This document shows positions 1-29,689 of a stretch of DNA of 34,434 bases, piece after piece. Within the stretch, counting starts at the first letter, position 1. Each line of letters starts with the position of its first letter. The position numbers and the translations under genes were made by a program. The DNA is from Psychrobacter sp. AH5. GTDB taxonomy: Bacteria > Pseudomonadota > Gammaproteobacteria > Pseudomonadales > Moraxellaceae. A model generated the notes under the pieces. That model was not told the origin of the DNA. It did no database searches and saw nothing but the letters and a program-made list of their open reading frames with translations. The DNA lies in NCBI RefSeq assembly GCF_040371085.1, contig NZ_JAMBMT010000005.1, forward strand, positions 1 through 34,434, written 5' to 3'.

Positions 1-3000
1 ATCAACAATGTTCATATCCGCAGTGGCTTGACCGACCACGATGGCCTCAAAGCCGCCGCCGACCGGATTACTGATGGTGATGCCAACCAGCTCACTACCC
101 TCAGCGATAAAGTCATCGATGGTATCAATGTCAAGATCGGTGCTGCTAGTGCCTGCAAGGATGGTCACTTGCACCACACCGGTAAAGTCGGTGCCGTCAA
201 TGGCCACGCCACTATAAGTCACATCAACCACCACATCGGTGATCGCATTGACCGGGTTGCCATTGCTATCGGTTAAGCTGATCGGGAAGCTGGCACTATT
301 ACCCTCTTCAACGTCGCCCACGGTGTCGGCGATCGAGACGGTGATGGTATCCTCCGCCCCAGGATCAGCTTCATCAACAATGTTCATATCCGCAGTGGCT
401 TGACCGACCACGATGGCCTCAAAGCCGCCGCCGACCGGATTACTGATGGTGATGCCAACCAGCTCACTACCCTCAGCGATAAAGTCATCGATGGTATCAA
501 TGTCAAGATCGGTGCTGCTAGTGCCTGCAAGGATGGTCACTTGCACCACACCGGTAAAGTCGGTGCCGTCAATGGCCACGCCACTATAAGTCACATCAAC
601 CACCACATCGGTGATCGCATTGACCGGGTTGCCATTGCTATCGGTTAAGCTGATCGGGAAGCTGGCACTATTACCCTCTTCAACGTCGCCCACGGTGTCG
701 GCGATCGAGACGGTGATGGTATCCTCCGCCCCAGGATCAGCTTCATCAACAATGTTCATATCCGCAGTGGCTTGACCGACCACGATGGCCTCAAAGCCGC
801 CGCCGACCGGATTACTGATGGTGATGCCAACCAGCTCACTACCCTCAGCGATAAAGTCATCGATGGTATCAATGTCAAGATCGGTGCTGCTAGTGCCTGC
901 AAGGATGGTCACTTGCACCACACCGGTAAAGTCGGTGCCGTCAATGGCCACGCCACTATAAGTCACATCAACCACCACATCGGTGATCGCATTGACCGGG
1001 TTGCCATTGCTATCGGTTAAGCTGATCGGGAAGCTGGCACTATTACCCTCTTCAACGTCGCCCACGGTGTCGGCGATCGAGACGGTGATGGTATCCTCCG
1101 CCCCAGGATCAGCTTCATCAACAATGTTCATATCCGCAGTGGCTTGACCGACCACGATGGCCTCAAAGCCGCCGCCGACCGGATTACTGATGGTGATGCC
1201 AACCAGCTCACTACCCTCAGCGATAAAGTCATCGATGGTATCAATGTCAAGATCGGTGCTGCTAGTGCCTGCAAGGATGGTCACTTGCACCACACCGGTA
1301 AAGTCGGTGCCGTCAATGGCCACGCCACTATAAGTCACATCAACCACCACATCGGTGATCGCATTGACCGGGTTGCCATTGCTATCGGTTAAGCTGATCG
1401 GGAAGCTGGCACTATTACCCTCTTCAACGTCGCCCACGGTGTCGGCGATCGAGACGGTGATGGTATCCTCCGCCCCAGGATCAGCTTCATCAACAATGTT
1501 CATATCCGCAGTGGCTTGACCGACCACGATGGCCTCAAAGCCGCCGCCGACCGGATTACTGATGGTGATGCCAACCAGCTCACTACCCTCAGCGATAAAG
1601 TCATCGATGGTATCAATGTCAAGATCGGTGCTGCTAGTGCCTGCAAGGATGGTCACTTGCACCACACCGGTAAAGTCGGTGCCGTCAATGGCCACGCCAC
1701 TATAAGTCACATCAACCACCACATCGGTGATCGCATTGACCGGGTTGCCATTGCTATCGGTTAAGCTGATCGGGAAGCTGGCACTATTACCCTCTTCAAC
1801 GTCGCCCACGGTGTCGGCGATCGAGACGGTGATGGTATCCTCCGCCCCAGGATCAGCTTCATCAACAATGTTCATATCCGCAGTGGCTTGACCGACCACG
1901 ATGGCCTCAAAGCCGCCGCCGACCGGATTACTGATGGTGATGCCAACCAGCTCACTACCCTCAGCGATAAAGTCATCGATGGTATCAATGTCAAGATCGG
2001 TGCTGCTAGTGCCTGCAAGGATGGTCACTTGCACCACACCGGTAAAGTCGGTGCCGTCAATGGCCACGCCACTATAAGTCACATCAACCACCACATCGGT
2101 GATCGCATTGACCGGGTTGCCATTGCTATCGGTTAAGCTGATCGGGAAGCTGGCACTATTACCCTCTTCAACGTCGCCCACGGTGTCGGCGATCGAGACG
2201 GTGATGGTATCCTCCGCCCCAGGATCAGCTTCATCAACAATGTTCATATCCGCAGTGGCTTGACCGACCACGATGGCCTCAAAGCCGCCGCCGACCGGAT
2301 TACTGATGGTGATGCCAACCAGCTCACTACCCTCAGCGATAAAGTCATCGATGGTATCAATGTCAAGATCGGTGCTGCTAGTGCCTGCAAGGATGGTCAC
2401 TTGCACCACACCGGTAAAGTCGGTGCCGTCAATGGCCACGCCACTATAAGTCACATCAACCACCACATCGGTGATCGCATTGACCGGGTTGCCATTGCTA
2501 TCGGTTAAGCTGATCGGGAAGCTGGCACTATTACCCTCTTCAACGTCGCCCACGGTGTCGGCGATCGAGACGGTGATGGTATCCTCCGCTCCAGGATCAG
2601 CTTCATCAACAATGTTCATATCCGCAGTGGCTTGACCGACCACGATGGCCTCAAAGCCGCCGCCGACCGGATTACTGATGGTGATGCCAACCAGCTCACT
2701 ACCCTCAGCGATAAAGTCATCGATGGTATCAATGTCAAGATCGGTGCTGCTAGTGCCTGCAAGGATGGTCACTTGCACCACACCGGTAAAGTCGGTGCCG
2801 TCAATGGCCACGCCACTATAAGTCACATCAACCACCACATCGGTGATCGCATTGACCGGGTTGCCATTGCTATCGGTTAAGCTGATCGGGAAGCTGGCAC
2901 TATTACCCTCTTCAACGTCGCCCACGGTGTCGGCGATCGAGACGGTGATGGTATCCTCCGCCCCAGGATCAGCTTCATCAACAATGTTCATATCCGCAGT

Positions 3001-5866
3001 GGCTTGACCGACCACGATGGCCTCAAAGCCGCCGCCGACCGGATTACTGATGGTGATGCCAACCAGCTCACTACCCTCAGCGATAAAGTCATCGATGGTA
3101 TCAATGTCAAGATCGGTGCTGCTAGTGCCTGCAAGGATGGTCACTTGCACCACACCGGTAAAGTCGGTGCCGTCAATGGCCACGCCACTATAAGTCACAT
3201 CAACCACCACATCGGTGATCGCATTGACCGGGTTGCCATTGCTATCGGTTAAGCTGATCGGGAAGCTGGCACTATTACCCTCTTCAACGTCGCCCACGGT
3301 GTCGGCGATCGAGACGGTGATGGTATCCTCCGCCCCAGGATCAGCTTCATCAACAATGTTCATATCCGCAGTGGCTTGACCGACCACGATGGCCTCAAAG
3401 CCGCCGCCGACCGGATTACTGATGGTGATGCCAACCAGCTCACTACCCTCAGCGATAAAGTCATCGATGGTATCAATGTCAAGATCGGTGCTGCTAGTGC
3501 CTGCAAGGATGGTCACTTGCACCACACCGGTAAAGTCGGTGCCGTCAATGGCCACGCCACTATAAGTCACATCAACCACCACATCGGTGATCGCATTGAC
3601 CGGGTTGCCATTGCTATCGGTTAAGCTGATCGGGAAGCTGGCACTATTACCCTCTTCAACGTCGCCCACGGTGTCGGCGATCGAGACGGTGATGGTATCC
3701 TCCGCTCCAGGATCAGCTTCATCAACAATGTTCATATCCGCAGTGGCTTGACCGACCACGATGGCCTCAAAGCCGCCGCCGACCGGATTACTGATGGTGA
3801 TGCCAACCAGCTCACTACCCTCAGCGATAAAGTCATCGATGGTATCAATGTCAAGATCGGTGCTGCTAGTGCCTGCAAGGATGGTCACTTGCACCACACC
3901 GGTAAAGTCGGTGCCGTCAATGGCCACGCCACTATAAGTCACATCAACCACCACATCGGTGATCGCATTGACCGGGTTGCCATTGCTATCGGTTAAGCTG
4001 ATCGGGAAGCTGGCACTATTACCCTCTTCAACGTCGCCCACGGTGTCGGCGATCGAGACGGTGATGGTATCCTCCGCCCCAGGATCAGCTTCATCAACAA
4101 TGTTCATATCCGCAGTGGCTTGACCGACCACGATGGCCTCAAAGCCGCCGCCGACCGGATTACTGATGGTGATGCCAACCAGCTCACTACCCTCAGCGAT
4201 AAAGTCATCGATGGTATCAATGTCAAGATCGGTGCTGCTAGTGCCTGCAAGGATGGTCACTTGCACCACACCGGTAAAGTCGGTGCCGTCAATGGCCACG
4301 CCACTATAAGTCACATCAACCACCACATCGGTGATCGCATTGACCGGGTTGCCATTGCTATCGGTTAAGCTGATCGGGAAGCTGGCACTATTACCCTCTT
4401 CAACGTCGCCCACGGTGTCGGCGATCGAGACGGTGATGGTATCCTCCGCCCCAGGATCAGCTTCATCAACAATGTTCATATCCGCAGTGGCTTGACCGAC
4501 CACGATGGCCTCAAAGCCGCCGCCGACCGGATTACTGATGGTGATGCCAACCAGCTCACTACCCTCAGCGATAAAGTCATCGATGGTATCAATGTCAAGA
4601 TCGGTGCTGCTAGTGCCTGCAAGGATGGTCACTTGCACCACACCGGTAAAGTCGGTGCCGTCAATGGCCACGCCACTATAAGTCACATCAACCACCACAT
4701 CGGTGATCGCATTGACCGGGTTGCCATTGCTATCGGTTAAGCTGATCGGGAAGCTGGCACTATTACCCTCTTCAACGTCGCCCACGGTGTCGGCGATCGA
4801 GACGGTGATGGTATCCTCCGCTCCAGGATCAGCTTCATCAACAATGTTCATATCCGCAGTGGCTTGACCGACCACGATGGCCTCAAAGCCGCCGCCGACC
4901 GGATTACTGATGGTGATGCCAACCAGCTCACTACCCTCAGCGATAAAGTCATCGATGGTATCAATGTCAAGATCGGTGCTGCTAGTGCCTGCAAGGATGG
5001 TCACTTGCACCACACCGGTAAAGTCGGTGCCGTCAATGGCCACGCCACTATAAGTCACATCAACCACCACATCGGTGATCGCATTGACCGGGTTGCCATT
5101 GCTATCGGTTAAGCTGATCGGGAAGCTGGCACTATTACCCTCTTCAACGTCGCCCACGGTGTCGGCGATCGAGACGGTGATGGTATCCTCCGCCCCAGGA
5201 TCAGCTTCATCAACAATGTTCATATCCGCAGTGGCTTGACCGACCACGATGGCCTCAAAGCCGCCGCCGACCGGATTACTGATGGTGATGCCAACCAGCT
5301 CACTACCCTCAGCGATAAAGTCATCGATGGTATCAATGTCAAGATCGGTGCTGCTAGTGCCTGCAAGGATGGTCACTTGCACCACACCGGTAAAGTCGGT
5401 GCCGTCAATGGCCACGCCACTATAAGTCACATCAACCACCACATCGGTGATCGCATTGACCGGGTTGCCATTGCTATCGGTTAAGCTGATCGGGAAGCTG
5501 GCACTATTACCCTCTTCAACGTCGCCCACGGTGTCGGCGATCGAGACGGTGATGGTATCCTCCGCCCCAGGATCAGCTTCATCAACAATGTTCATATCCG
5601 CAGTGGCTTGACCGACCACGATGGCCTCAAAGCCGCCGCCGACCGGATTACTGATGGTGATGCCAACCAGCTCACTACCCTCAGCGATAAAGTCATCGAT
5701 GGTATCAATGTCAAGATCGGTGCTGCTAGTGCCTGCAAGGATGGTCACTTGCACCACACCGGTAAAGTCGGTGCCGTCAATGGCCACGCCACTATAAGTC
5801 ACATCAACCACCACATCGGTGATCGCATTGACCGGGTTGCCATTGCTATCGGTTAAGCTGATCGGA
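1..5866 (-). CDS. Giant adhesin, distal repeat segment (partial, no C-terminus)
   Basis: Continuation of the minus-strand adhesin after the one-base deletion at 5864-5865. It reads open without a stop to base 1 and consists only of 124-residue Calx-beta-like repeats (about 15.7 units). Each unit has the family hallmarks: an EGNSASFPISL strand, GTDFTG, a hydrophobic VQVTILAG strand, IDTIDDFIAEGSE (acidic, probably calcium-binding) and a closing ITISNPVGGG strand. There is no start of its own and no C-terminus. The gene would be expected to continue into the VWA-containing C-terminus found at 29690-31627. The break is most simply a homopolymer error (GGG read as GG), so this is part of the same gene as 5853-13337. 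Confidence 0.8.
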
Positions 5867-8800
5867 AGCTGGCACTATTACCCTCTTCAACGTCGCCCAC
5901 GGTGTCGGCGATCGAGACGGTGATGGTATCCTCCGCCCCAGGATCAGCTTCATCAACAATGTTCATATCCGCAGTGGCTTGACCGACCACGATGGCCTCA
6001 AAGCCGCCGCCGACCGGATTACTGATGGTGATGCCAACCAGCTCACTACCCTCAGCGATAAAGTCATCGATGGTATCAATGTCAAGATCGGTGCTGCTAG
6101 TGCCTGCAAGGATGGTCACTTGCACCACACCGGTAAAGTCGGTGCCGTCAATGGCCACGCCACTATAAGTCACATCAACCACCACATCGGTGATCGCATT
6201 GACCGGGTTGCCATTGCTATCGGTTAAGCTGATCGGGAAGCTGGCACTATTACCCTCTTCAACGTCGCCCACGGTGTCGGCGATCGAGACGGTGATGGTA
6301 TCCTCCGCCCCAGGATCAGCTTCATCAACAATGTTCATATCCGCAGTGGCTTGACCGACCACGATGGCCTCAAAGCCGCCGCCGACCGGATTACTGATGG
6401 TGATGCCAACCAGCTCACTACCCTCAGCGATAAAGTCATCGATGGTATCAATGTCAAGATCGGTGCTGCTAGTGCCTGCAAGGATGGTCACTTGCACCAC
6501 ACCGGTAAAGTCGGTGCCGTCAATGGCCACGCCACTATAAGTCACATCAACCACCACATCGGTGATCGCATTGACCGGGTTGCCATTGCTATCGGTTAAG
6601 CTGATCGGGAAGCTGGCACTATTACCCTCTTCAACGTCGCCCACGGTGTCGGCGATCGAGACGGTGATGGTATCCTCCGCCCCAGGATCAGCTTCATCAA
6701 CAATGTTCATATCCGCAGTGGCTTGACCGACCACGATGGCCTCAAAGCCGCCGCCGACCGGATTACTGATGGTGATGCCAACCAGCTCACTACCCTCAGC
6801 GATAAAGTCATCGATGGTATCAATGTCAAGATCGGTGCTGCTAGTGCCTGCAAGGATGGTCACTTGCACCACACCGGTAAAGTCGGTGCCGTCAATGGCC
6901 ACGCCACTATAAGTCACATCAACCACCACATCGGTGATCGCATTGACCGGGTTGCCATTGCTATCGGTTAAGCTGATCGGGAAGCTGGCACTATTACCCT
7001 CTTCAACGTCGCCCACGGTGTCGGCGATCGAGACGGTGATGGTATCCTCCGCCCCAGGATCAGCTTCATCAACAATGTTCATATCCGCAGTGGCTTGACC
7101 GACCACGATGGCCTCAAAGCCGCCGCCGACCGGATTACTGATGGTGATGCCAACCAGCTCACTACCCTCAGCGATAAAGTCATCGATGGTATCAATGTCA
7201 AGATCGGTGCTGCTAGTGCCTGCAAGGATGGTCACTTGCACCACACCGGTAAAGTCGGTGCCGTCAATGGCCACGCCACTATAAGTCACATCAACCACCA
7301 CATCGGTGATCGCATTGACCGGGTTGCCATTGCTATCGGTTAAGCTGATCGGGAAGCTGGCACTATTACCCTCTTCAACGTCGCCCACGGTGTCGGCGAT
7401 CGAGACGGTGATGGTATCCTCCGCCCCAGGATCAGCTTCATCAACAATGTTCATATCCGCAGTGGCTTGACCGACCACGATGGCCTCAAAGCCGCCGCCG
7501 ACCGGATTACTGATGGTGATGCCAACCAGCTCACTACCCTCAGCGATAAAGTCATCGATGGTATCAATGTCAAGATCGGTGCTGCTAGTGCCTGCAAGGA
7601 TGGTCACTTGCACCACACCGGTAAAGTCGGTGCCGTCAATGGCCACGCCACTATAAGTCACATCAACCACCACATCGGTGATCGCATTGACCGGGTTGCC
7701 ATTGCTATCGGTTAAGCTGATCGGGAAGCTGGCACTATTACCCTCTTCAACGTCGCCCACGGTGTCGGCGATCGAGACGGTGATGGTATCCTCCGCCCCA
7801 GGATCAGCTTCATCAACAATGTTCATATCCGCAGTGGCTTGACCGACCACGATGGCCTCAAAGCCGCCGCCGACCGGATTACTGATGGTGATGCCAACCA
7901 GCTCACTACCCTCAGCGATAAAGTCATCGATGGTATCAATGTCAAGATCGGTGCTGCTAGTGCCTGCAAGGATGGTCACTTGCACCACACCGGTAAAGTC
8001 GGTGCCGTCAATGGCCACGCCACTATAAGTCACATCAACCACCACATCGGTGATCGCATTGACCGGGTTGCCATTGCTATCGGTTAAGCTGATCGGGAAG
8101 CTGGCACTATTACCCTCTTCAACGTCGCCCACGGTGTCGGCGATCGAGACGGTGATGGTATCCTCCGCCCCAGGATCAGCTTCATCAACAATGTTCATAT
8201 CCGCAGTGGCTTGACCGACCACGATGGCCTCAAAGCCGCCGCCGACCGGATTACTGATGGTGATGCCAACCAGCTCACTACCCTCAGCGATAAAGTCATC
8301 GATGGTATCAATGTCAAGATCGGTGCTGCTAGTGCCTGCAAGGATGGTCACTTGCACCACACCGGTAAAGTCGGTGCCGTCAATGGCCACGCCACTATAA
8401 GTCACATCAACCACCACATCGGTGATCGCATTGACCGGGTTGCCATTGCTATCGGTTAAGCTGATCGGGAAGCTGGCACTATTACCCTCTTCAACGTCGC
8501 CCACGGTGTCGGCGATCGAGACGGTGATGGTATCCTCCGCCCCAGGATCAGCTTCATCAACAATGTTCATATCCGCAGTGGCTTGACCGACCACGATGGC
8601 CTCAAAGCCGCCGCCGACCGGATTACTGATGGTGATGCCAACCAGCTCACTACCCTCAGCGATAAAGTCATCGATGGTATCAATGTCAAGATCGGTGCTG
8701 CTAGTGCCTGCAAGGATGGTCACTTGCACCACACCGGTAAAGTCGGTGCCGTCAATGGCCACGCCACTATAAGTCACATCAACCACCACATCGGTGATCG

Positions 8801-11800
8801 CATTGACCGGGTTGCCATTGCTATCGGTTAAGCTGATCGGGAAGCTGGCACTATTACCCTCTTCAACGTCGCCCACGGTGTCGGCGATCGAGACGGTGAT
8901 GGTATCCTCCGCCCCAGGATCAGCTTCATCAACAATGTTCATATCCGCAGTGGCTTGACCGACCACGATGGCCTCAAAGCCGCCGCCGACCGGATTACTG
9001 ATGGTGATGCCAACCAGCTCACTACCCTCAGCGATAAAGTCATCGATGGTATCAATGTCAAGATCGGTGCTGCTAGTGCCTGCAAGGATGGTCACTTGCA
9101 CCACACCGGTAAAGTCGGTGCCGTCAATGGCCACGCCACTATAAGTCACATCAACCACCACATCGGTGATCGCATTGACCGGGTTGCCATTGCTATCGGT
9201 TAAGCTGATCGGGAAGCTGGCACTATTACCCTCTTCAACGTCGCCCACGGTGTCGGCGATCGAGACGGTGATGGTATCCTCCGCCCCAGGATCAGCTTCA
9301 TCAACAATGTTCATATCCGCAGTGGCTTGACCGACCACGATGGCCTCAAAGCCGCCGCCGACCGGATTACTGATGGTGATGCCAACCAGCTCACTACCCT
9401 CAGCGATAAAGTCATCGATGGTATCAATGTCAAGATCGGTGCTGCTAGTGCCTGCAAGGATGGTCACTTGCACCACACCGGTAAAGTCGGTGCCGTCAAT
9501 GGCCACGCCACTATAAGTCACATCAACCACCACATCGGTGATCGCATTGACCGGGTTGCCATTGCTATCGGTTAAGCTGATCGGGAAGCTGGCACTATTA
9601 CCCTCTTCAACGTCGCCCACGGTGTCGGCGATCGAGACGGTGATGGTATCCTCCGCCCCAGGATCAGCTTCATCAACAATGTTCATATCCGCAGTGGCTT
9701 GACCGACCACGATGGCCTCAAAGCCGCCGCCGACCGGATTACTGATGGTGATGCCAACCAGCTCACTACCCTCAGCGATAAAGTCATCGATGGTATCAAT
9801 GTCAAGATCGGTGCTGCTAGTGCCTGCAAGGATGGTCACTTGCACCACACCGGTAAAGTCGGTGCCGTCAATGGCCACGCCACTATAAGTCACATCAACC
9901 ACCACATCGGTGATCGCATTGACCGGGTTGCCATTGCTATCGGTTAAGCTGATCGGGAAGCTGGCACTATTACCCTCTTCAACGTCGCCCACGGTGTCGG
10001 CGATCGAGACGGTGATGGTATCCTCCGCCCCAGGATCAGCTTCATCAACAATGTTCATATCCGCAGTGGCTTGACCGACCACGATGGCCTCAAAGCCGCC
10101 GCCGACCGGATTACTGATGGTGATGCCAACCAGCTCACTACCCTCAGCGATAAAGTCATCGATGGTATCAATGTCAAGATCGGTGCTGCTAGTGCCTGCA
10201 AGGATGGTCACTTGCACCACACCGGTAAAGTCGGTGCCGTCAATGGCCACGCCACTATAAGTCACATCAACCACCACATCGGTGATCGCATTGACCGGGT
10301 TGCCATTGCTATCGGTTAAGCTGATCGGGAAGCTGGCACTATTACCCTCTTCAACGTCGCCCACGGTGTCGGCGATCGAGACGGTGATGGTATCCTCCGC
10401 CCCAGGATCAGCTTCATCAACAATGTTCATATCCGCAGTGGCTTGACCGACCACGATGGCCTCAAAGCCGCCGCCGACCGGATTACTGATGGTGATGCCA
10501 ACCAGCTCACTACCCTCAGCGATAAAGTCATCGATGGTATCAATGTCAAGATCGGTGCTGCTAGTGCCTGCAAGGATGGTCACTTGCACCACACCGGTAA
10601 AGTCGGTGCCGTCAATGGCCACGCCACTATAAGTCACATCAACCACCACATCGGTGATCGCATTGACCGGGTTGCCATTGCTATCGGTTAAGCTGATCGG
10701 GAAGCTGGCACTATTACCCTCTTCAACGTCGCCCACGGTGTCGGCGATCGAGACGGTGATGGTATCCTCCGCCCCAGGATCAGCTTCATCAACAATGTTC
10801 ATATCCGCAGTGGCTTGACCGACCACGATGGCCTCAAAGCCGCCGCCGACCGGATTACTGATGGTGATGCCAACCAGCTCACTACCCTCAGCGATAAAGT
10901 CATCGATGGTATCAATGTCAAGATCGGTGCTGCTAGTGCCTGCAAGGATGGTCACTTGCACCACACCGGTAAAGTCGGTGCCGTCAATGGCCACGCCACT
11001 ATAAGTCACATCAACCACCACATCGGTGATCGCATTGACCGGGTTGCCATTGCTATCGGTTAAGCTGATCGGGAAGCTGGCACTATTACCCTCTTCAACG
11101 TCGCCCACGGTGTCGGCGATCGAGACGGTGATGGTATCCTCCGCCCCAGGATCAGCTTCATCAACAATGTTCATATCCGCAGTGGCTTGACCGACCACGA
11201 TGGCCTCAAAGCCGCCGCCGACCGGATTACTGATGGTGATGCCAACCAGCTCACTACCCTCAGCGATAAAGTCATCGATGGTATCAATGTCAAGATCGGT
11301 GCTGCTAGTGCCTGCAAGGATGGTCACTTGCACCACACCGGTAAAGTCGGTGCCGTCAATGGCCACGCCACTATAAGTCACATCAACCACCACATCGGTG
11401 ATCGCATTGACCGGGTTGCCATTGCTATCGGTTAAGCTGATCGGGAAGCTGGCACTATTACCCTCTTCAACGTCGCCCACGGTGTCGGCGATCGAGACGG
11501 TGATGGTATCCTCCGCCCCAGGATCAGCTTCATCAACAATGTTCATATCCGCAGTGGCTTGACCGACCACGATGGCCTCAAAGCCGCCGCCGACCGGATT
11601 ACTGATGGTGATGCCAACCAGCTCACTACCCTCAGCGATAAAGTCATCGATGGTATCAATGTCAAGATCGGTGCTGCTAGTGCCTGCAAGGATGGTCACT
11701 TGCACCACACCGGTAAAGTCGGTGCCGTCAATGGCCACGCCACTATAAGTCACATCAACCACCACATCGGTGATCGCATTGACCGGGTTGCCATTGCTAT

Positions 11801-12647
11801 CGGTTAAGCTGATCGGGAAGCTGGCACTATTACCCTCTTCAACGTCGCCCACGGTGTCGGCGATCGAGACGGTGATGGTATCCTCCGCCCCAGGATCAGC
11901 TTCATCAACAATGTTCATATCCGCAGTGGCTTGACCGACCACGATGGCCTCAAAGCCGCCGCCGACCGGATTACTGATGGTGATGCCAACCAGCTCACTA
12001 CCCTCAGCGATAAAGTCATCGATGGTATCAATGTCAAGATCGGTGCTGCTAGTGCCTGCAAGGATGGTCACTTGCACCACACCGGTAAAGTCGGTGCCGT
12101 CAATGGCCACGCCACTATAAGTCACATCAACCACCACATCGGTGATCGCATTGACCGGGTTGCCATTGCTATCGGTTAAGCTGATCGGGAAGCTGGCACT
12201 ATTACCCTCTTCAACGTCGCCCACGGTGTCGGCGATCGAGACGGTGATGGTATCCTCCGCCCCAGGATCAGCTTCATCAACAATGTTCATATCCGCAGTG
12301 GCTTGACCGACCACGATGGCCTCAAAGCCGCCGCCGACCGGATTACTGATGGTGATGCCAACCAGCTCACTACCCTCAGCGATAAAGTCATCGATGGTAT
12401 CAATGTCAAGATCGGTGCTGCTAGTGCCTGCAAGGATGGTCACTTGCACCACACCGGTAAAGTCGGTGCCGTCAATGGCCACGCCACTATAAGTCACATC
12501 AACCACCACATCGGTGATCGCATTGACCGGGTTGCCATTGCTATCGGTTAAGCTGATCGGGAAGCTGGCACTATTACCCTCTTCAACGTCGCCCACGGTG
12601 TCGGCAATAGAGACGGTGATGGTATCCTCAGGACCTGGCTCGTCTTC
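1..12647 (-). repeat. Tandem array of 34 x 372-bp adhesin repeats, left (inverted) copy
   Basis: Thirty-four head-to-tail copies of a 372-bp unit, coding on the minus strand, each giving a 124-residue Calx-beta-like domain. Copies are essentially identical. The only substitutions I see among internal copies are three silent Gly changes in the linker (GGG to GGA) at 2590, 3706 and 4822, spaced exactly three units apart. One G is missing from a GGG run at 5864-5865 and breaks the frame. The first unit, next to the N-terminus (12600-12647), has a diverged start and a DEDEPGPE-type linker instead of DEADPGAE. Base 1 coincides with the last base the array shares with the unique C-terminus of the plus-strand copy. 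Length is 34 x 372 minus 1, the same as the right copy. Probably a duplicate image of the array at 17042-29689. Confidence 0.95.
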
Positions 12648-14304: not shown

Positions 14305-14310
14305 GATATT

Positions 14311-14316: not shown

Positions 14317-14363
14317 TTTTTCAAAATTTAGTAACTCAAATACGTTCTATAAGATTGTTCGAC

Positions 14364-15729: not shown

Positions 15730-15758
15730 AAAAAAAACGCCCCTAAATATAGGGGCGT
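15730..15758 (-). terminator. Rho-independent terminator of the HlyD gene
   Basis: An 8-bp GC-rich stem (ACGCCCCT / AGGGGCGT, loop AAATAT), followed on the minus strand by a run of Ts. It sits 56 bases after the HlyD stop and would separate HlyD from the lipoprotein-adhesin operon. The run of A lies only on the left side, so it acts on minus-strand transcripts. Confidence 0.85.
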
Positions 15759-15813
15759 CTCATTGATAAAATAACTTTAAAACACATAGTAGGCTAAAGG
15801 TTTAGTACAGATA

Positions 15814-16985: not shown

Positions 16986-16996
16986 GAAACGGTTCT
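16976..16996. other. Breakpoint joining HlyD sequence to inverted adhesin sequence
   Basis: Left of about 16985 the sequence is HlyD coding sequence on the minus strand. From 16986 the plus strand is the same sequence as the reverse complement of 12701 downward (GAAACGGTTCTAATTACC). The switch is abrupt, with no inverted terminal repeats, target duplication or recombinase gene beside it. It cuts two coding regions at once. Best read as an assembly or read chimera. Confidence 0.8.
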
Positions 16997-19900
16997 AATT
17001 ACCGTTAATGGCGTTTACTGGAATAGGTACAATCGTCCGATGAAGACGAGCCCAGGTCCTGAGGATACCATCACCGTCTCTATTGCCGACACCGTGGGCG
17101 ACGTTGAAGAGGGTAATAGTGCCAGCTTCCCGATCAGCTTAACCGATAGCAATGGCAACCCGGTCAATGCGATCACCGATGTGGTGGTTGATGTGACTTA
17201 TAGTGGCGTGGCCATTGACGGCACCGACTTTACCGGTGTGGTGCAAGTGACCATCCTTGCAGGCACTAGCAGCACCGATCTTGACATTGATACCATCGAT
17301 GACTTTATCGCTGAGGGTAGTGAGCTGGTTGGCATCACCATCAGTAATCCGGTCGGCGGCGGCTTTGAGGCCATCGTGGTCGGTCAAGCCACTGCGGATA
17401 TGAACATTGTTGATGAAGCTGATCCTGGGGCGGAGGATACCATCACCGTCTCGATCGCCGACACCGTGGGCGACGTTGAAGAGGGTAATAGTGCCAGCTT
17501 CCCGATCAGCTTAACCGATAGCAATGGCAACCCGGTCAATGCGATCACCGATGTGGTGGTTGATGTGACTTATAGTGGCGTGGCCATTGACGGCACCGAC
17601 TTTACCGGTGTGGTGCAAGTGACCATCCTTGCAGGCACTAGCAGCACCGATCTTGACATTGATACCATCGATGACTTTATCGCTGAGGGTAGTGAGCTGG
17701 TTGGCATCACCATCAGTAATCCGGTCGGCGGCGGCTTTGAGGCCATCGTGGTCGGTCAAGCCACTGCGGATATGAACATTGTTGATGAAGCTGATCCTGG
17801 GGCGGAGGATACCATCACCGTCTCGATCGCCGACACCGTGGGCGACGTTGAAGAGGGTAATAGTGCCAGCTTCCCGATCAGCTTAACCGATAGCAATGGC
17901 AACCCGGTCAATGCGATCACCGATGTGGTGGTTGATGTGACTTATAGTGGCGTGGCCATTGACGGCACCGACTTTACCGGTGTGGTGCAAGTGACCATCC
18001 TTGCAGGCACTAGCAGCACCGATCTTGACATTGATACCATCGATGACTTTATCGCTGAGGGTAGTGAGCTGGTTGGCATCACCATCAGTAATCCGGTCGG
18101 CGGCGGCTTTGAGGCCATCGTGGTCGGTCAAGCCACTGCGGATATGAACATTGTTGATGAAGCTGATCCTGGGGCGGAGGATACCATCACCGTCTCGATC
18201 GCCGACACCGTGGGCGACGTTGAAGAGGGTAATAGTGCCAGCTTCCCGATCAGCTTAACCGATAGCAATGGCAACCCGGTCAATGCGATCACCGATGTGG
18301 TGGTTGATGTGACTTATAGTGGCGTGGCCATTGACGGCACCGACTTTACCGGTGTGGTGCAAGTGACCATCCTTGCAGGCACTAGCAGCACCGATCTTGA
18401 CATTGATACCATCGATGACTTTATCGCTGAGGGTAGTGAGCTGGTTGGCATCACCATCAGTAATCCGGTCGGCGGCGGCTTTGAGGCCATCGTGGTCGGT
18501 CAAGCCACTGCGGATATGAACATTGTTGATGAAGCTGATCCTGGGGCGGAGGATACCATCACCGTCTCGATCGCCGACACCGTGGGCGACGTTGAAGAGG
18601 GTAATAGTGCCAGCTTCCCGATCAGCTTAACCGATAGCAATGGCAACCCGGTCAATGCGATCACCGATGTGGTGGTTGATGTGACTTATAGTGGCGTGGC
18701 CATTGACGGCACCGACTTTACCGGTGTGGTGCAAGTGACCATCCTTGCAGGCACTAGCAGCACCGATCTTGACATTGATACCATCGATGACTTTATCGCT
18801 GAGGGTAGTGAGCTGGTTGGCATCACCATCAGTAATCCGGTCGGCGGCGGCTTTGAGGCCATCGTGGTCGGTCAAGCCACTGCGGATATGAACATTGTTG
18901 ATGAAGCTGATCCTGGGGCGGAGGATACCATCACCGTCTCGATCGCCGACACCGTGGGCGACGTTGAAGAGGGTAATAGTGCCAGCTTCCCGATCAGCTT
19001 AACCGATAGCAATGGCAACCCGGTCAATGCGATCACCGATGTGGTGGTTGATGTGACTTATAGTGGCGTGGCCATTGACGGCACCGACTTTACCGGTGTG
19101 GTGCAAGTGACCATCCTTGCAGGCACTAGCAGCACCGATCTTGACATTGATACCATCGATGACTTTATCGCTGAGGGTAGTGAGCTGGTTGGCATCACCA
19201 TCAGTAATCCGGTCGGCGGCGGCTTTGAGGCCATCGTGGTCGGTCAAGCCACTGCGGATATGAACATTGTTGATGAAGCTGATCCTGGAGCGGAGGATAC
19301 CATCACCGTCTCGATCGCCGACACCGTGGGCGACGTTGAAGAGGGTAATAGTGCCAGCTTCCCGATCAGCTTAACCGATAGCAATGGCAACCCGGTCAAT
19401 GCGATCACCGATGTGGTGGTTGATGTGACTTATAGTGGCGTGGCCATTGACGGCACCGACTTTACCGGTGTGGTGCAAGTGACCATCCTTGCAGGCACTA
19501 GCAGCACCGATCTTGACATTGATACCATCGATGACTTTATCGCTGAGGGTAGTGAGCTGGTTGGCATCACCATCAGTAATCCGGTCGGCGGCGGCTTTGA
19601 GGCCATCGTGGTCGGTCAAGCCACTGCGGATATGAACATTGTTGATGAAGCTGATCCTGGAGCGGAGGATACCATCACCGTCTCGATCGCCGACACCGTG
19701 GGCGACGTTGAAGAGGGTAATAGTGCCAGCTTCCCGATCAGCTTAACCGATAGCAATGGCAACCCGGTCAATGCGATCACCGATGTGGTGGTTGATGTGA
19801 CTTATAGTGGCGTGGCCATTGACGGCACCGACTTTACCGGTGTGGTGCAAGTGACCATCCTTGCAGGCACTAGCAGCACCGATCTTGACATTGATACCAT

Positions 19901-20117
19901 CGATGACTTTATCGCTGAGGGTAGTGAGCTGGTTGGCATCACCATCAGTAATCCGGTCGGCGGCGGCTTTGAGGCCATCGTGGTCGGTCAAGCCACTGCG
20001 GATATGAACATTGTTGATGAAGCTGATCCTGGGCGGAGGATACCATCACCGTCTCGATCGCCGACACCGTGGGCGACGTTGAAGAGGGTAATAGTGCCAG
20101 CTTCCCGATCAGCTTAA
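16986..20117 (+). CDS. Giant adhesin, right copy, N-proximal repeat segment (no N-terminus)
   Basis: Plus-strand copy of the adhesin beginning 56 bases before the array (ETVLITVNGV, then two slips, then PGPEDTITVSIADT) and carrying the first eight 124-residue Calx-beta-like repeats. The preceding open frame back to 16884 is antisense HlyD sequence and is not part of the protein. Two extra bases relative to the left copy lie in the short unique lead-in (one T near 17021, one C near 17051-17053). A missing G at 20031-20033 (GGGG read as GGG) shifts the frame and gives a false stop at 20117. The same protein resumes in the correct frame downstream, so this and the 20069-31627 segment form one gene. 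Confidence 0.75.
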   Translation, partial: ETVLITVNGVYWNRYNRPMKTSPGPEDTITVSIADTVGDVEEGNSASFPISLTDSNGNPVNAITDVVVDVTYSGVAIDGTDFTGVVQVTILAGTSSTDLDIDTIDDFIAEGSELVGITISNPVGGGFEAIVVGQATADMNIVDEADPGAEDTITVSIADTVGDVEEGNSASFPISLTDSNGNPVNAITDVVVDVTYSGVAIDGTDFTGVVQVTILAGTSSTDLDIDTIDDFIAEGSELVGITISNPVGGGFEAIVVGQATADMNIVDEADPGAEDTITVSIADTVGDVEEGNSASFPISLTDSNGNPVNAITDVVVDVTYSGVAIDGTDFTGVVQVTILAGTSSTDLDIDTIDDFIAEGSELVGITISNPVGGGFEAIVVGQATADMNIVDEADPGAEDTITVSIADTVGDVEEGNSASFPISLTDSNGNPVNAITDVVVDVTYSGVAIDGTDFTGVVQVTILAGTSSTDLDIDTIDDFIAEGSELVGITISNPVGGGFEAIVVGQATADMNIVDEADPGAEDTITVSIADTVGDVEEGNSASFPISLTDSNGNPVNAITDVVVDVTYSGVAIDGTDFTGVVQVTILAGTSSTDLDIDTIDDFIAEGSELVGITISNPVGGGFEAIVVGQATADMNIVDEADPGAEDTITVSIADTVGDVEEGNSASFPISLTDSNGNPVNAITDVVVDVTYSGVAIDGTDFTGVVQVTILAGTSSTDLDIDTIDDFIAEGSELVGITISNPVGGGFEAIVVGQATADMNIVDEADPGAEDTITVSIADTVGDVEEGNSASFPISLTDSNGNPVNAITDVVVDVTYSGVAIDGTDFTGVVQVTILAGTSSTDLDIDTIDDFIAEGSELVGITISNPVGGGFEAIVVGQATADMNIVDEADPGAEDTITVSIADTVGDVEEGNSASFPISLTDSNGNPVNAITDVVVDVTYSGVAIDGTDFTGVVQVTILAGTSSTDLDIDTIDDFIAEGSELVGITISNPVGGGFEAIVVGQATADMNIVDEADPGRRIPSPSRSPTPWATLKRVIVPASRSA

Positions 20118-23100
20118 CCGATAGCAATGGCAACCCGGTCAATGCGATCACCGATGTGGTGGTTGATGTGACTTATAGTGGCGTGGCCATTGACGGCACC
20201 GACTTTACCGGTGTGGTGCAAGTGACCATCCTTGCAGGCACTAGCAGCACCGATCTTGACATTGATACCATCGATGACTTTATCGCTGAGGGTAGTGAGC
20301 TGGTTGGCATCACCATCAGTAATCCGGTCGGCGGCGGCTTTGAGGCCATCGTGGTCGGTCAAGCCACTGCGGATATGAACATTGTTGATGAAGCTGATCC
20401 TGGGGCGGAGGATACCATCACCGTCTCGATCGCCGACACCGTGGGCGACGTTGAAGAGGGTAATAGTGCCAGCTTCCCGATCAGCTTAACCGATAGCAAT
20501 GGCAACCCGGTCAATGCGATCACCGATGTGGTGGTTGATGTGACTTATAGTGGCGTGGCCATTGACGGCACCGACTTTACCGGTGTGGTGCAAGTGACCA
20601 TCCTTGCAGGCACTAGCAGCACCGATCTTGACATTGATACCATCGATGACTTTATCGCTGAGGGTAGTGAGCTGGTTGGCATCACCATCAGTAATCCGGT
20701 CGGCGGCGGCTTTGAGGCCATCGTGGTCGGTCAAGCCACTGCGGATATGAACATTGTTGATGAAGCTGATCCTGGGGCGGAGGATACCATCACCGTCTCG
20801 ATCGCCGACACCGTGGGCGACGTTGAAGAGGGTAATAGTGCCAGCTTCCCGATCAGCTTAACCGATAGCAATGGCAACCCGGTCAATGCGATCACCGATG
20901 TGGTGGTTGATGTGACTTATAGTGGCGTGGCCATTGACGGCACCGACTTTACCGGTGTGGTGCAAGTGACCATCCTTGCAGGCACTAGCAGCACCGATCT
21001 TGACATTGATACCATCGATGACTTTATCGCTGAGGGTAGTGAGCTGGTTGGCATCACCATCAGTAATCCGGTCGGCGGCGGCTTTGAGGCCATCGTGGTC
21101 GGTCAAGCCACTGCGGATATGAACATTGTTGATGAAGCTGATCCTGGGGCGGAGGATACCATCACCGTCTCGATCGCCGACACCGTGGGCGACGTTGAAG
21201 AGGGTAATAGTGCCAGCTTCCCGATCAGCTTAACCGATAGCAATGGCAACCCGGTCAATGCGATCACCGATGTGGTGGTTGATGTGACTTATAGTGGCGT
21301 GGCCATTGACGGCACCGACTTTACCGGTGTGGTGCAAGTGACCATCCTTGCAGGCACTAGCAGCACCGATCTTGACATTGATACCATCGATGACTTTATC
21401 GCTGAGGGTAGTGAGCTGGTTGGCATCACCATCAGTAATCCGGTCGGCGGCGGCTTTGAGGCCATCGTGGTCGGTCAAGCCACTGCGGATATGAACATTG
21501 TTGATGAAGCTGATCCTGGGGCGGAGGATACCATCACCGTCTCGATCGCCGACACCGTGGGCGACGTTGAAGAGGGTAATAGTGCCAGCTTCCCGATCAG
21601 CTTAACCGATAGCAATGGCAACCCGGTCAATGCGATCACCGATGTGGTGGTTGATGTGACTTATAGTGGCGTGGCCATTGACGGCACCGACTTTACCGGT
21701 GTGGTGCAAGTGACCATCCTTGCAGGCACTAGCAGCACCGATCTTGACATTGATACCATCGATGACTTTATCGCTGAGGGTAGTGAGCTGGTTGGCATCA
21801 CCATCAGTAATCCGGTCGGCGGCGGCTTTGAGGCCATCGTGGTCGGTCAAGCCACTGCGGATATGAACATTGTTGATGAAGCTGATCCTGGAGCGGAGGA
21901 TACCATCACCGTCTCGATCGCCGACACCGTGGGCGACGTTGAAGAGGGTAATAGTGCCAGCTTCCCGATCAGCTTAACCGATAGCAATGGCAACCCGGTC
22001 AATGCGATCACCGATGTGGTGGTTGATGTGACTTATAGTGGCGTGGCCATTGACGGCACCGACTTTACCGGTGTGGTGCAAGTGACCATCCTTGCAGGCA
22101 CTAGCAGCACCGATCTTGACATTGATACCATCGATGACTTTATCGCTGAGGGTAGTGAGCTGGTTGGCATCACCATCAGTAATCCGGTCGGCGGCGGCTT
22201 TGAGGCCATCGTGGTCGGTCAAGCCACTGCGGATATGAACATTGTTGATGAAGCTGATCCTGGAGCGGAGGATACCATCACCGTCTCGATCGCCGACACC
22301 GTGGGCGACGTTGAAGAGGGTAATAGTGCCAGCTTCCCGATCAGCTTAACCGATAGCAATGGCAACCCGGTCAATGCGATCACCGATGTGGTGGTTGATG
22401 TGACTTATAGTGGCGTGGCCATTGACGGCACCGACTTTACCGGTGTGGTGCAAGTGACCATCCTTGCAGGCACTAGCAGCACCGATCTTGACATTGATAC
22501 CATCGATGACTTTATCGCTGAGGGTAGTGAGCTGGTTGGCATCACCATCAGTAATCCGGTCGGCGGCGGCTTTGAGGCCATCGTGGTCGGTCAAGCCACT
22601 GCGGATATGAACATTGTTGATGAAGCTGATCCTGGGGCGGAGGATACCATCACCGTCTCGATCGCCGACACCGTGGGCGACGTTGAAGAGGGTAATAGTG
22701 CCAGCTTCCCGATCAGCTTAACCGATAGCAATGGCAACCCGGTCAATGCGATCACCGATGTGGTGGTTGATGTGACTTATAGTGGCGTGGCCATTGACGG
22801 CACCGACTTTACCGGTGTGGTGCAAGTGACCATCCTTGCAGGCACTAGCAGCACCGATCTTGACATTGATACCATCGATGACTTTATCGCTGAGGGTAGT
22901 GAGCTGGTTGGCATCACCATCAGTAATCCGGTCGGCGGCGGCTTTGAGGCCATCGTGGTCGGTCAAGCCACTGCGGATATGAACATTGTTGATGAAGCTG
23001 ATCCTGGGGCGGAGGATACCATCACCGTCTCGATCGCCGACACCGTGGGCGACGTTGAAGAGGGTAATAGTGCCAGCTTCCCGATCAGCTTAACCGATAG

Positions 23101-26100
23101 CAATGGCAACCCGGTCAATGCGATCACCGATGTGGTGGTTGATGTGACTTATAGTGGCGTGGCCATTGACGGCACCGACTTTACCGGTGTGGTGCAAGTG
23201 ACCATCCTTGCAGGCACTAGCAGCACCGATCTTGACATTGATACCATCGATGACTTTATCGCTGAGGGTAGTGAGCTGGTTGGCATCACCATCAGTAATC
23301 CGGTCGGCGGCGGCTTTGAGGCCATCGTGGTCGGTCAAGCCACTGCGGATATGAACATTGTTGATGAAGCTGATCCTGGGGCGGAGGATACCATCACCGT
23401 CTCGATCGCCGACACCGTGGGCGACGTTGAAGAGGGTAATAGTGCCAGCTTCCCGATCAGCTTAACCGATAGCAATGGCAACCCGGTCAATGCGATCACC
23501 GATGTGGTGGTTGATGTGACTTATAGTGGCGTGGCCATTGACGGCACCGACTTTACCGGTGTGGTGCAAGTGACCATCCTTGCAGGCACTAGCAGCACCG
23601 ATCTTGACATTGATACCATCGATGACTTTATCGCTGAGGGTAGTGAGCTGGTTGGCATCACCATCAGTAATCCGGTCGGCGGCGGCTTTGAGGCCATCGT
23701 GGTCGGTCAAGCCACTGCGGATATGAACATTGTTGATGAAGCTGATCCTGGAGCGGAGGATACCATCACCGTCTCGATCGCCGACACCGTGGGCGACGTT
23801 GAAGAGGGTAATAGTGCCAGCTTCCCGATCAGCTTAACCGATAGCAATGGCAACCCGGTCAATGCGATCACCGATGTGGTGGTTGATGTGACTTATAGTG
23901 GCGTGGCCATTGACGGCACCGACTTTACCGGTGTGGTGCAAGTGACCATCCTTGCAGGCACTAGCAGCACCGATCTTGACATTGATACCATCGATGACTT
24001 TATCGCTGAGGGTAGTGAGCTGGTTGGCATCACCATCAGTAATCCGGTCGGCGGCGGCTTTGAGGCCATCGTGGTCGGTCAAGCCACTGCGGATATGAAC
24101 ATTGTTGATGAAGCTGATCCTGGGGCGGAGGATACCATCACCGTCTCGATCGCCGACACCGTGGGCGACGTTGAAGAGGGTAATAGTGCCAGCTTCCCGA
24201 TCAGCTTAACCGATAGCAATGGCAACCCGGTCAATGCGATCACCGATGTGGTGGTTGATGTGACTTATAGTGGCGTGGCCATTGACGGCACCGACTTTAC
24301 CGGTGTGGTGCAAGTGACCATCCTTGCAGGCACTAGCAGCACCGATCTTGACATTGATACCATCGATGACTTTATCGCTGAGGGTAGTGAGCTGGTTGGC
24401 ATCACCATCAGTAATCCGGTCGGCGGCGGCTTTGAGGCCATCGTGGTCGGTCAAGCCACTGCGGATATGAACATTGTTGATGAAGCTGATCCTGGGGCGG
24501 AGGATACCATCACCGTCTCGATCGCCGACACCGTGGGCGACGTTGAAGAGGGTAATAGTGCCAGCTTCCCGATCAGCTTAACCGATAGCAATGGCAACCC
24601 GGTCAATGCGATCACCGATGTGGTGGTTGATGTGACTTATAGTGGCGTGGCCATTGACGGCACCGACTTTACCGGTGTGGTGCAAGTGACCATCCTTGCA
24701 GGCACTAGCAGCACCGATCTTGACATTGATACCATCGATGACTTTATCGCTGAGGGTAGTGAGCTGGTTGGCATCACCATCAGTAATCCGGTCGGCGGCG
24801 GCTTTGAGGCCATCGTGGTCGGTCAAGCCACTGCGGATATGAACATTGTTGATGAAGCTGATCCTGGAGCGGAGGATACCATCACCGTCTCGATCGCCGA
24901 CACCGTGGGCGACGTTGAAGAGGGTAATAGTGCCAGCTTCCCGATCAGCTTAACCGATAGCAATGGCAACCCGGTCAATGCGATCACCGATGTGGTGGTT
25001 GATGTGACTTATAGTGGCGTGGCCATTGACGGCACCGACTTTACCGGTGTGGTGCAAGTGACCATCCTTGCAGGCACTAGCAGCACCGATCTTGACATTG
25101 ATACCATCGATGACTTTATCGCTGAGGGTAGTGAGCTGGTTGGCATCACCATCAGTAATCCGGTCGGCGGCGGCTTTGAGGCCATCGTGGTCGGTCAAGC
25201 CACTGCGGATATGAACATTGTTGATGAAGCTGATCCTGGGGCGGAGGATACCATCACCGTCTCGATCGCCGACACCGTGGGCGACGTTGAAGAGGGTAAT
25301 AGTGCCAGCTTCCCGATCAGCTTAACCGATAGCAATGGCAACCCGGTCAATGCGATCACCGATGTGGTGGTTGATGTGACTTATAGTGGCGTGGCCATTG
25401 ACGGCACCGACTTTACCGGTGTGGTGCAAGTGACCATCCTTGCAGGCACTAGCAGCACCGATCTTGACATTGATACCATCGATGACTTTATCGCTGAGGG
25501 TAGTGAGCTGGTTGGCATCACCATCAGTAATCCGGTCGGCGGCGGCTTTGAGGCCATCGTGGTCGGTCAAGCCACTGCGGATATGAACATTGTTGATGAA
25601 GCTGATCCTGGGGCGGAGGATACCATCACCGTCTCGATCGCCGACACCGTGGGCGACGTTGAAGAGGGTAATAGTGCCAGCTTCCCGATCAGCTTAACCG
25701 ATAGCAATGGCAACCCGGTCAATGCGATCACCGATGTGGTGGTTGATGTGACTTATAGTGGCGTGGCCATTGACGGCACCGACTTTACCGGTGTGGTGCA
25801 AGTGACCATCCTTGCAGGCACTAGCAGCACCGATCTTGACATTGATACCATCGATGACTTTATCGCTGAGGGTAGTGAGCTGGTTGGCATCACCATCAGT
25901 AATCCGGTCGGCGGCGGCTTTGAGGCCATCGTGGTCGGTCAAGCCACTGCGGATATGAACATTGTTGATGAAGCTGATCCTGGAGCGGAGGATACCATCA
26001 CCGTCTCGATCGCCGACACCGTGGGCGACGTTGAAGAGGGTAATAGTGCCAGCTTCCCAGTCAGCTTAACCGATAGCAATGGCAACCCGGTCAATGCGAT

Positions 26101-29100
26101 CACCGATGTGGTGGTTGATGTGACTTATAGTGGCGTGGCCATTGACGGCACCGACTTTACCGGTGTGGTGCAAGTGACCATCCTTGCAGGCACTAGCAGC
26201 ACCGATCTTGACATTGATACCATCGATGACTTTATCACTGAGGGTAGTGAGCTGGTTGGCATCACCATCAGTAATCCGGTCGGCGGCGGCTTTGAGGCCA
26301 TCGTGGTCGGTCAAGCCACTGCGGATATGAACATTGTTGATGAAGCTGATCCTGGGGCGGAGGATACCATCACCGTCTCGATCGCCGACACCGTGGGCGA
26401 CGTTGAAGAGGGTAATAGTGCCAGCTTCCCGATCAGCTTAACCGATAGCAATGGCAACCCGGTCAATGCGATCACCGATGTGGTGGTTGATGTGACTTAT
26501 AGTGGCGTGGCCATTGACGGCACCGACTTTACCGGTGTGGTGCAAGTGACCATCCTTGCAGGCACTAGCAGCACCGATCTTGACATTGATACCATCGATG
26601 ACTTTATCGCTGAGGGTAGTGAGCTGGTTGGCATCACCATCAGTAATCCGGTCGGCGGCGGCTTTGAGGCCATCGTGGTCGGTCAAGCCACTGCGGATAT
26701 GAACATTGTTGATGAAGCTGATCCTGGAGCGGAGGATACCATCACCGTCTCGATCGCCGACACCGTGGGCGACGTTGAAGAGGGTAATAGTGCCAGCTTC
26801 CCGATCAGCTTAACCGATAGCAATGGCAACCCGGTCAATGCGATCACCGATGTGGTGGTTGATGTGACTTATAGTGGCGTGGCCATTGACGGCACCGACT
26901 TTACCGGTGTGGTGCAAGTGACCATCCTTGCAGGCACTAGCAGCACCGATCTTGACATTGATACCATCGATGACTTTATCGCTGAGGGTAGTGAGCTGGT
27001 TGGCATCACCATCAGTAATCCGGTCGGCGGCGGCTTTGAGGCCATCGTGGTCGGTCAAGCCACTGCGGATATGAACATTGTTGATGAAGCTGATCCTGGA
27101 GCGGAGGATACCATCACCGTCTCGATCGCCGACACCGTGGGCGACGTTGAAGAGGGTAATAGTGCCAGCTTCCCGATCAGCTTAACCGATAGCAATGGCA
27201 ACCCGGTCAATGCGATCACCGATGTGGTGGTTGATGTGACTTATAGTGGCGTGGCCATTGACGGCACCGACTTTACCGGTGTGGTGCAAGTGACCATCCT
27301 TGCAGGCACTAGCAGCACCGATCTTGACATTGATACCATCGATGACTTTATCGCTGAGGGTAGTGAGCTGGTTGGCATCACCATCAGTAATCCGGTCGGC
27401 GGCGGCTTTGAGGCCATCGTGGTCGGTCAAGCCACTGCGGATATGAACATTGTTGATGAAGCTGATCCTGGGGCGGAGGATACCATCACCGTCTCGATCG
27501 CCGACACCGTGGGCGACGTTGAAGAGGGTAATAGTGCCAGCTTCCCGATCAGCTTAACCGATAGCAATGGCAACCCGGTCAATGCGATCACCGATGTGGT
27601 GGTTGATGTGACTTATAGTGGCGTGGCCATTGACGGCACCGACTTTACCGGTGTGGTGCAAGTGACCATCCTTGCAGGCACTAGCAGCACCGATCTTGAC
27701 ATTGATACCATCGATGACTTTATCGCTGAGGGTAGTGAGCTGGTTGGCATCACCATCAGTAATCCGGTCGGCGGCGGCTTTGAGGCCATCGTGGTCGGTC
27801 AAGCCACTGCGGATATGAACATTGTTGATGAAGCTGATCCTGGGGCGGAGGATACCATCACCGTCTCGATCGCCGACACCGTGGGCGACGTTGAAGAGGG
27901 TAATAGTGCCAGCTTCCCGATCAGCTTAACCGATAGCAATGGCAACCCGGTCAATGCGATCACCGATGTGGTGGTTGATGTGACTTATAGTGGCGTGGCC
28001 ATTGACGGCACCGACTTTACCGGTGTGGTGCAAGTGACCATCCTTGCAGGCACTAGCAGCACCGATCTTGACATTGATACCATCGATGACTTTATCGCTG
28101 AGGGTAGTGAGCTGGTTGGCATCACCATCAGTAATCCGGTCGGCGGCGGCTTTGAGGCCATCGTGGTCGGTCAAGCCACTGCGGATATGAACATTGTTGA
28201 TGAAGCTGATCCTGGGGCGGAGGATACCATCACCGTCTCGATCGCCGACACCGTGGGCGACGTTGAAGAGGGTAATAGTGCCAGCTTCCCGATCAGCTTA
28301 ACCGATAGCAATGGCAACCCGGTCAATGCGATCACCGATGTGGTGGTTGATGTGACTTATAGTGGCGTGGCCATTGACGGCACCGACTTTACCGGTGTGG
28401 TGCAAGTGACCATCCTTGCAGGCACTAGCAGCACCGATCTTGACATTGATACCATCGATGACTTTATCGCTGAGGGTAGTGAGCTGGTTGGCATCACCAT
28501 CAGTAATCCGGTCGGCGGCGGCTTTGAGGCCATCGTGGTCGGTCAAGCCACTGCGGATATGAACATTGTTGATGAAGCTGATCCTGGGGCGGAGGATACC
28601 ATCACCGTCTCGATCGCCGACACCGTGGGCGACGTTGAAGAGGGTAATAGTGCCAGCTTCCCGATCAGCTTAACCGATAGCAATGGCAACCCGGTCAATG
28701 CGATCACCGATGTGGTGGTTGATGTGACTTATAGTGGCGTGGCCATTGACGGCACCGACTTTACCGGTGTGGTGCAAGTGACCATCCTTGCAGGCACTAG
28801 CAGCACCGATCTTGACATTGATACCATCGATGACTTTATCGCTGAGGGTAGTGAGCTGGTTGGCATCACCATCAGTAATCCGGTCGGCGGCGGCTTTGAG
28901 GCCATCGTGGTCGGTCAAGCCACTGCGGATATGAACATTGTTGATGAAGCTGATCCTGGAGCGGAGGATACCATCACCGTCTCGATCGCCGACACCGTGG
29001 GCGACGTTGAAGAGGGTAATAGTGCCAGCTTCCCAGTCAGCTTAACCGATAGCAATGGCAACCCGGTCAATGCGATCACCGATGTGGTGGTTGATGTGAC

Positions 29101-29689
29101 TTATAGTGGCGTGGCCATTGACGGCACCGACTTTACCGGTGTGGTGCAAGTGACCATCCTTGCAGGCACTAGCAGCACCGATCTTGACATTGATACCATC
29201 GATGACTTTATCGCTGAGGGTAGTGAGCTGGTTGGCATCACCATCAGTAATCCGGTCGGCGGCGGCTTTGAGGCCATCGTGGTCGGTCAAGCCACTGCGG
29301 ATATGAACATTGTTGATGAAGCTGATCCTGGGGCGGAGGATACCATCACCGTCTCGATCGCCGACACCGTGGGCGACGTTGAAGAGGGTAATAGTGCCAG
29401 CTTCCCGATCAGCTTAACCGATAGCAATGGCAACCCGGTCAATGCGATCACCGATGTGGTGGTTGATGTGACTTATAGTGGCGTGGCCATTGACGGCACC
29501 GACTTTACCGGTGTGGTGCAAGTGACCATCCTTGCAGGCACTAGCAGCACCGATCTTGACATTGATACCATCGATGACTTTATCGCTGAGGGTAGTGAGC
29601 TGGTTGGCATCACCATCAGTAATCCGGTCGGCGGCGGCTTTGAGGCCATCGTGGTCGGTCAAGCCACTGCGGATATGAACATTGTTGAT
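17042..29689 (+). repeat. Tandem array of 34 x 372-bp adhesin repeats, right copy
   Basis: Thirty-four head-to-tail copies of the 372-bp unit, coding on the plus strand. Counting from the N-terminal side, the silent GGG to GGA linker change follows units 6, 7, 13, 14, 18, 21, 24, 26, 27 and 32 (for example at 19289, 24868, 25984 and 27100). Unit 25 also carries Ile to Val (26058-26060) and Ala to Thr (26235); unit 33 carries the same Ile to Val (29034-29037). All other internal bases appear identical, apart from the one-base deletion at 20031-20033. The array looks GC-richer than the unique C-terminus after it. Such uniformity points to recent amplification or continuing homogenisation, or to consensus smoothing. 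Confidence 0.97.

Follow-up and report, generated by a model that had tools for sequence, protein, structure and literature searches.

The window analysed here is the whole of contig C5 (34,434 bases), one of seven contigs in the 3,241,797-base assembly of Psychrobacter sp. AH5. Its 16S gene shows 96% identity to that of Psychrobacter pygoscelis, which fits Psychrobacter or a close relative. It is dominated by two long tandem arrays in inverted orientation, which TRF placed at 1-12629 and 17061-29689, each with 34.0 copies of a 372-base unit; a unit-by-unit comparison gave exactly 34 units in each arm (Table 1). With a common lead of 72 bases on the left and 75 on the right, these arrays form the near-identical inverted arms that the original prediction had placed at 1-12701 and 16986-29689, and the 4.3-kb loop that it drew between them is likewise present once. 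Its count of 34 units per arm held, as did its placing of base 1 exactly on the border between array and C-terminus, and only its array lengths of 12,647-12,648 bases differ slightly from ours: the array measures 12,629 bases in each arm and 12,630 on the chromosome contig, the gap reflecting how the last unit, which ends at its base 354, is counted (34 complete units would come to 12,648 bases). The loop carries, all coded on the minus strand, the N-terminus of an adhesin, an OmpA-like gene and an HlyD gene without its start, and these genes are broken by many indels.

Table 1. Features of the window and their counterparts on the chromosome contig (C1)
Feature	Position	Strand	Description
Left copy of the 34-unit array (372-base unit)	1-12629	-	Matches C1 1974851-1987480; differs by 23 substitutions and by a single-base deletion in unit 19 that interrupts the frame
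72-base lead upstream of the array, end of left arm	12630-12701	-	Identical to C1
Loop, single copy	12702-16985	-	Matches C1 1987553-1991793; read-like errors rise towards 16985
Fold-back junction	16985-16986		C1 1991793 (+) joined to C1 1987552 (-); microhomology of 0 bases
Second copy of the lead	16986-17060	+	75 bases, with 3 single-base insertions that C1 and the left copy lack
Right copy of the 34-unit array	17061-29689	+	Ten C1 linker variants at matching unit numbers; departs from C1 by 11 substitutions and by a single-base deletion in unit 8
Adhesin C-terminus (VWA domain)	29690-31627	+	Identical to C1
Downstream flank	31628-34434	+	16S rRNA (32453-33992), tRNA-Ile and tRNA-Ala; ends within rRNA operon repeat

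An intact copy of the locus lies elsewhere in the assembly, on the chromosome contig (C1, 2,967,972 bases), so that the array is present three times, in the two arms of C5 and on C1. There it sits inside an adhesin gene with an intact open frame of 5,411 residues (C1 1972913-1989148), which from the HlyD side reads HlyD, OmpA-like gene, N-terminus, array and C-terminus. The wider order on C1 is a TolC-like outer membrane protein (assigned by the Pfam family OEP and falling under the TolC cut-off of NCBIfam), an LssB-type ABC transporter, the HlyD-type adaptor, the OmpA-like protein, the adhesin and an rRNA operon. The protein has Calx-beta matches, LapA-domain repeats (PF20579) and a VWA domain. 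It is a known kind of adhesin: its LapA repeats, VWA domain and HlyD, LssB-type ABC and TolC-like neighbours are those of LapA-like giant adhesins encoded with type I secretion genes, from which it differs in that the C-terminal calcium-binding RTX nonapeptide family (PF00353) gave no match at E 1e-3 in the 795-residue C-terminal piece scanned. Another piece, covering the array of C1 (L010:2-13735, minus strand), passed the Pfam cut-off for Astro_p19, a family of astroviruses; the match is probably due to chance, with the repeats multiplying it.

Among 105 genomes of the genus, the C-terminal region was matched in 22, counting its own genome (E 1e-3), and the array unit in three (E 1e-20): its own, for which 42 of 109 candidates were scored, and G042 and G050, with 8 and 11 unit matches at 49-62% identity. 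Since 27 of the 34 chromosomal units are identical in protein sequence (the last unit being truncated) while the identity to the units of those two genomes is so much lower, the array looks to have been recently expanded or homogenised in this species. A separate scan of genome contigs returned distant relatives of the C-terminus only.

The whole of C5 can be traced along this one locus. C5 1-16985 tracks C1 1974851-1991793, and C5 16986-34434 tracks C1 from 1987552 back to 1970107; the two halves thus come from a single locus in opposite orientation, and C5 holds no sequence from outside it. A search of the genome with one unit returned 102 matches, 68 in C5, 34 in C1 at 1974851-1987480 and none elsewhere. 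The loop has copies in C5 and C1 only, plus one 68-base match, and these two contigs are also the sole carriers of the adhesin C-terminus with its flank as far as window position 31822. A second real gene was rejected as an explanation, because both arms and the loop match the one chromosomal locus. Base 1 of the window corresponds to C1 1974851, the final array base before the C-terminus. Across the turn, C5 12258-16985 aligned with C1 1987109-1991793, after which 4,241 bases are skipped, leaving about 4.2 kb in single copy; neither side of the junction has a base in common with the other side's continuation. From the last part of the right array onwards the agreement is almost complete, with 99.98% identity between C5 29300-34434 and C1 1975240-1970107 and a single base difference in the 4,745 bases of C5 29690-34434.

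The 3' end of C5 falls inside the rRNA operon repeat. The start of C1 (C1:3) lies at the edge of another copy of the repeat carried at window 31823-34434, and a comparison of the two C1 ends found no overlap between them; the chromosome contig was therefore probably cut at an rRNA operon.

The arms were compared with each other and with the chromosomal array unit by unit, as a MAFFT alignment of the whole arms set them three units out of step, with 2,237 gap columns. In register, 12 substitutions and 5 single-base indels separate the two arms with their leads, and 3 of these indels lie in the lead. Against C1, the count is 23 substitutions and 1 indel for the left arm with its lead, and 11 substitutions and 4 indels for the right arm with its lead. 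The original prediction had also drawn on linker variants, of which it reported three on the left, after units 21, 24 and 27, and ten on the right that included those three. We recovered both sets, the right-hand one at units 6, 7, 13, 14, 18, 21, 24, 26, 27 and 32. The chance agreement calculated from them (120/5456, or 2.2%) is arithmetically correct, but the argument is weak on its own, because, once every variant is counted, the left arm matches about equally well at an offset of three units: against the right arm it shows 13 differences in 31 units at a shift of -3 and 14 in 34 at 0, and against C1, 20 in 31 units at +3 and 24 in 34 at 0. We therefore set the left-arm linker variants aside as evidence of register.

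The right arm compared with C1 is decisive for the register, since at shift 0 the 34 units show 12 differences, as against 17-39 in 26-33 units at 16 other shifts. The linker variants of the chromosomal array fall at exactly the ten units of the right arm (10/10), an agreement expected by chance at about 1e-8 if ten-unit sets are equally likely. Seven of these ten chromosomal variants are missing from the left arm. In addition, units 1, 5, 17 and 22 hold 11 sites at which the two arms share a base that C1 does not have. As C5 has the base of the common unit at every one of these sites, consensus smoothing is the likely cause.

The loop departs from C1 along a steep gradient. Pairwise alignment in 400-base windows gave differences of about 0.5% at 12630-13429 and 1.0-1.7% to 15429, increasing to 4.4-4.5% to 16229 and 6.1-6.4% at 16230-16985, so that the errors are concentrated at the turn. 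Over C5 12630-16985 the pairwise aligner counted 68 insertions, 25 deletions and 22 substitutions in C5; the corresponding MAFFT alignment of the loop has 64 insertions, 21 deletions and 84 substitutions, the substitution count being aligner-dependent. The excess of insertions over deletions and the rise in differences towards the junction appear with both methods. There are 75 indels in the adhesin N-terminus and the OmpA-like and HlyD genes of the loop, and its 20 coding substitutions comprise 2 synonymous changes, 17 nonsynonymous changes and 1 stop; the arms, like the loop, are frameshifted. Within the window at 16950-16975, beside the junction, a short perfect inverted repeat with 8-base arms was seen by eye; it is imperfect in C1, and its perfection in C5 is probably a read error.

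In PacBio reads, insertions outnumber deletions. The insertion-rich errors of the loop loosely point to PacBio continuous reads, and they are unlike those of nanopore reads, which are described as mostly deletions (PMC8486125, PMC4719071). The fit to the PacBio RS ratio, in which indels are about 15 times as frequent as substitutions (PMC4719071), is itself loose, as the ratio in the loop is about 4 by pairwise alignment or about 1 by MAFFT.

Related genomes show to which contig these differences belong. G085, a conspecific genome of 2.2 Mb and 77% completeness, aligns in one piece to C1 1988058-1993992, past the turn of C5, with 98.6% identity over 5,934 bases. A congener, G033, is collinear with C1 through 1991793, the position at which C5 instead jumps from the start of HlyD to the array lead. 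Four genomes were searched, and both of those with a collinear match (G085 and G033) pass through C1 1991793 without a turn, as judged by the collinearity of their matches. The 3,799 loop columns common to C5, C1 and G085 include 165 with a state private to C5, 64 private to G085, 1 private to C1 and 1 in which all three differ; this count was made with MAFFT, which inflates substitutions here as it did above, and the C5-private columns divide into 83 substitution and 82 indel columns. The contig of G085 ends inside the adhesin N-terminus, and a search of that genome found no match to the array unit or C-terminus, which makes it uninformative on the array. In G042 and G050 the HlyD-like match is located elsewhere, and an OmpA-like gene precedes the adhesin. 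The synteny of these two genomes was dropped as a means of discriminating between C1 and C5, the OmpA-adhesin neighbourhood being retained in C5 too.

Taken together, these observations suggest, with a probability of roughly 0.95, that C5 is a spurious fold-back contig, a second and error-laden copy of the single adhesin locus on C1, and that the inverted duplication is not a real feature of the genome. The strongest evidence for an artefact is the copy on C1, the error gradient and the errors private to C5, none of them visible to the original prediction. The original prediction, that one chromosomal array had been placed twice, agrees with the array of the intact gene on C1, of which both C5 arms look like copies. 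Its proposal of a fold-back misassembly is supported and can be refined: C5 appears to be an extra contig rather than a misjoin inside the chromosome.

We propose that C1 carries the genome's only adhesin gene with this 34-unit array. A very small number of long reads, perhaps just one, or of molecules generated in library preparation, would have passed from the array through the adhesin N-terminus and the OmpA-like gene into HlyD, crossed to the other strand at a point 4.2 kb back and traversed the array again as far as the C-terminus and the rRNA operon. Since a junction with 0 shared bases cannot arise by overlap of similar sequence, it was probably present in one or more reads or molecules. 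The long, near-identical array in both halves may have led the assembler to retain a separate contig, in which reads from the true array would have polished both arms, while raw read errors would have persisted in the part of the loop next to the switch, where coverage was perhaps a single read. Such polishing would draw individual units closer to the common one and could account for both the seven variants missing from the left arm and the 11 sites at which the arms differ from C1.

Candidate causes of such a read include a missed hairpin adapter giving a palindromic read that was partly trimmed, consecutive reading of the two strands with a gap in the second, and an amplification chimera. 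Missed SMRTbell adapters are reported to yield palindromic long reads (PMC6218980), and fold-backs to occur in about 0.55-0.6% of genomic ONT reads and to be all but absent from PacBio HiFi data (PMC12870357). C5 resembles the artefacts of these two reports in that a sequence is followed by its own reverse complement and disturbs the assembly. It differs from fold-back reads as PMC12870357 defines them, by a return alignment within 200 bp of the turn, in that its turn is asymmetric, skipping 4,241 bases and leaving 4.2 kb once. MDA, by the account in PMC1855051, yields inverted chimeras with skipped sequence; C5 is like these in its switch to a nearby opposite strand and its skipped sequence, but more than 70% of the junctions described there had 2-21 shared bases, whereas that of C5 has 0. 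Three observations count against an artefact: the 4.2 kb present once, as opposed to a turn at a single point, the 11 sites at which both arms differ from C1, and the seven variants missing from the left arm. The near absence of fold-backs from the PacBio HiFi data of PMC12870357 counts against it as well.

The alternative that survives best is a real inverted duplication of the adhesin locus, chromosomal or extrachromosomal, carried by a minority of cells, in which the second copy would be new and the errors assembly noise. It would have arisen by strand switching near the array, the repeat array acting as a hotspot of rearrangement, and, if true, adhesin arrays would seed inverted duplications. 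The clean switch at the junction, the near-identical arms and the 11 differences from C1 common to both arms are all compatible with such an event, and low read coverage, with a noisy loop as its result, would be expected of a rare variant too. Nevertheless, a noisy loop is unexpected for a well-covered replicon, C5 contains nothing from outside the C1 locus, and base 1 stops exactly at the array border, so that we regard a real duplication, by this route or any other, as very improbable.

Duplication by the assembly in other contigs argues against it as well. C3 (24,104 bases) and C4 (19,636 bases) are exact head-to-tail doubles, of 2 x 12,052 and 2 x 9,818 bases, and are most likely circular plasmids assembled twice round. 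Wick and Holt (PMC6966772) describe contigs in which a small plasmid occurs twice (contiguity of about 200%), an outcome most frequent with Canu and NextDenovo/NextPolish. C3 and C4 are alike in being exact head-to-tail doubles; these are direct repeats, and C5 differs from them in being inverted. No inverted self-match of more than 200 bases was found in C2, C4 and C7 (searched whole) or in the first 20,000 bases of C3 and C6 (of 24,104 and 151,210), and no match to the window in C4 and C7 (whole) or the first 20,000 bases of C2, C3 and C6.

A second copy of the locus decaying into a pseudogene, a paralogue that gathers private changes without selection, is hardly credible. The 165 columns private to C5 and the substitutions without purifying selection would suit it; a rise in difference from about 0.5% to 6% over 4.3 kb, next to 4,745 bases with one difference, would be unexpected, as would changes that are mostly single-base insertions (pairwise alignment) in a locus whose array and C-terminus are almost unchanged. 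That C5 is correct and C1 the misassembled copy, a reading prompted by the presence of the array in both contigs, deserves next to no credence, as the open frame is on C1, and G085 and G033 pass through C1 1991793 as C1 does.

Setting the spurious contig aside removes from the genome a false second adhesin locus and a false HlyD-array junction, together with disrupted versions of the OmpA-like and HlyD genes and one 16S copy too many. The case also suggests that near-identical repeats extending over more than 12 kb can protect a chimeric read from rejection, and similar small contigs next to giant adhesins deserve the same check. The largest contig of G033 starts 316 bases before its C-terminal match and ends 27 bases after its N-terminal match; it appears to be cut inside the corresponding adhesin gene, so that the gene seems to have broken that assembly too.
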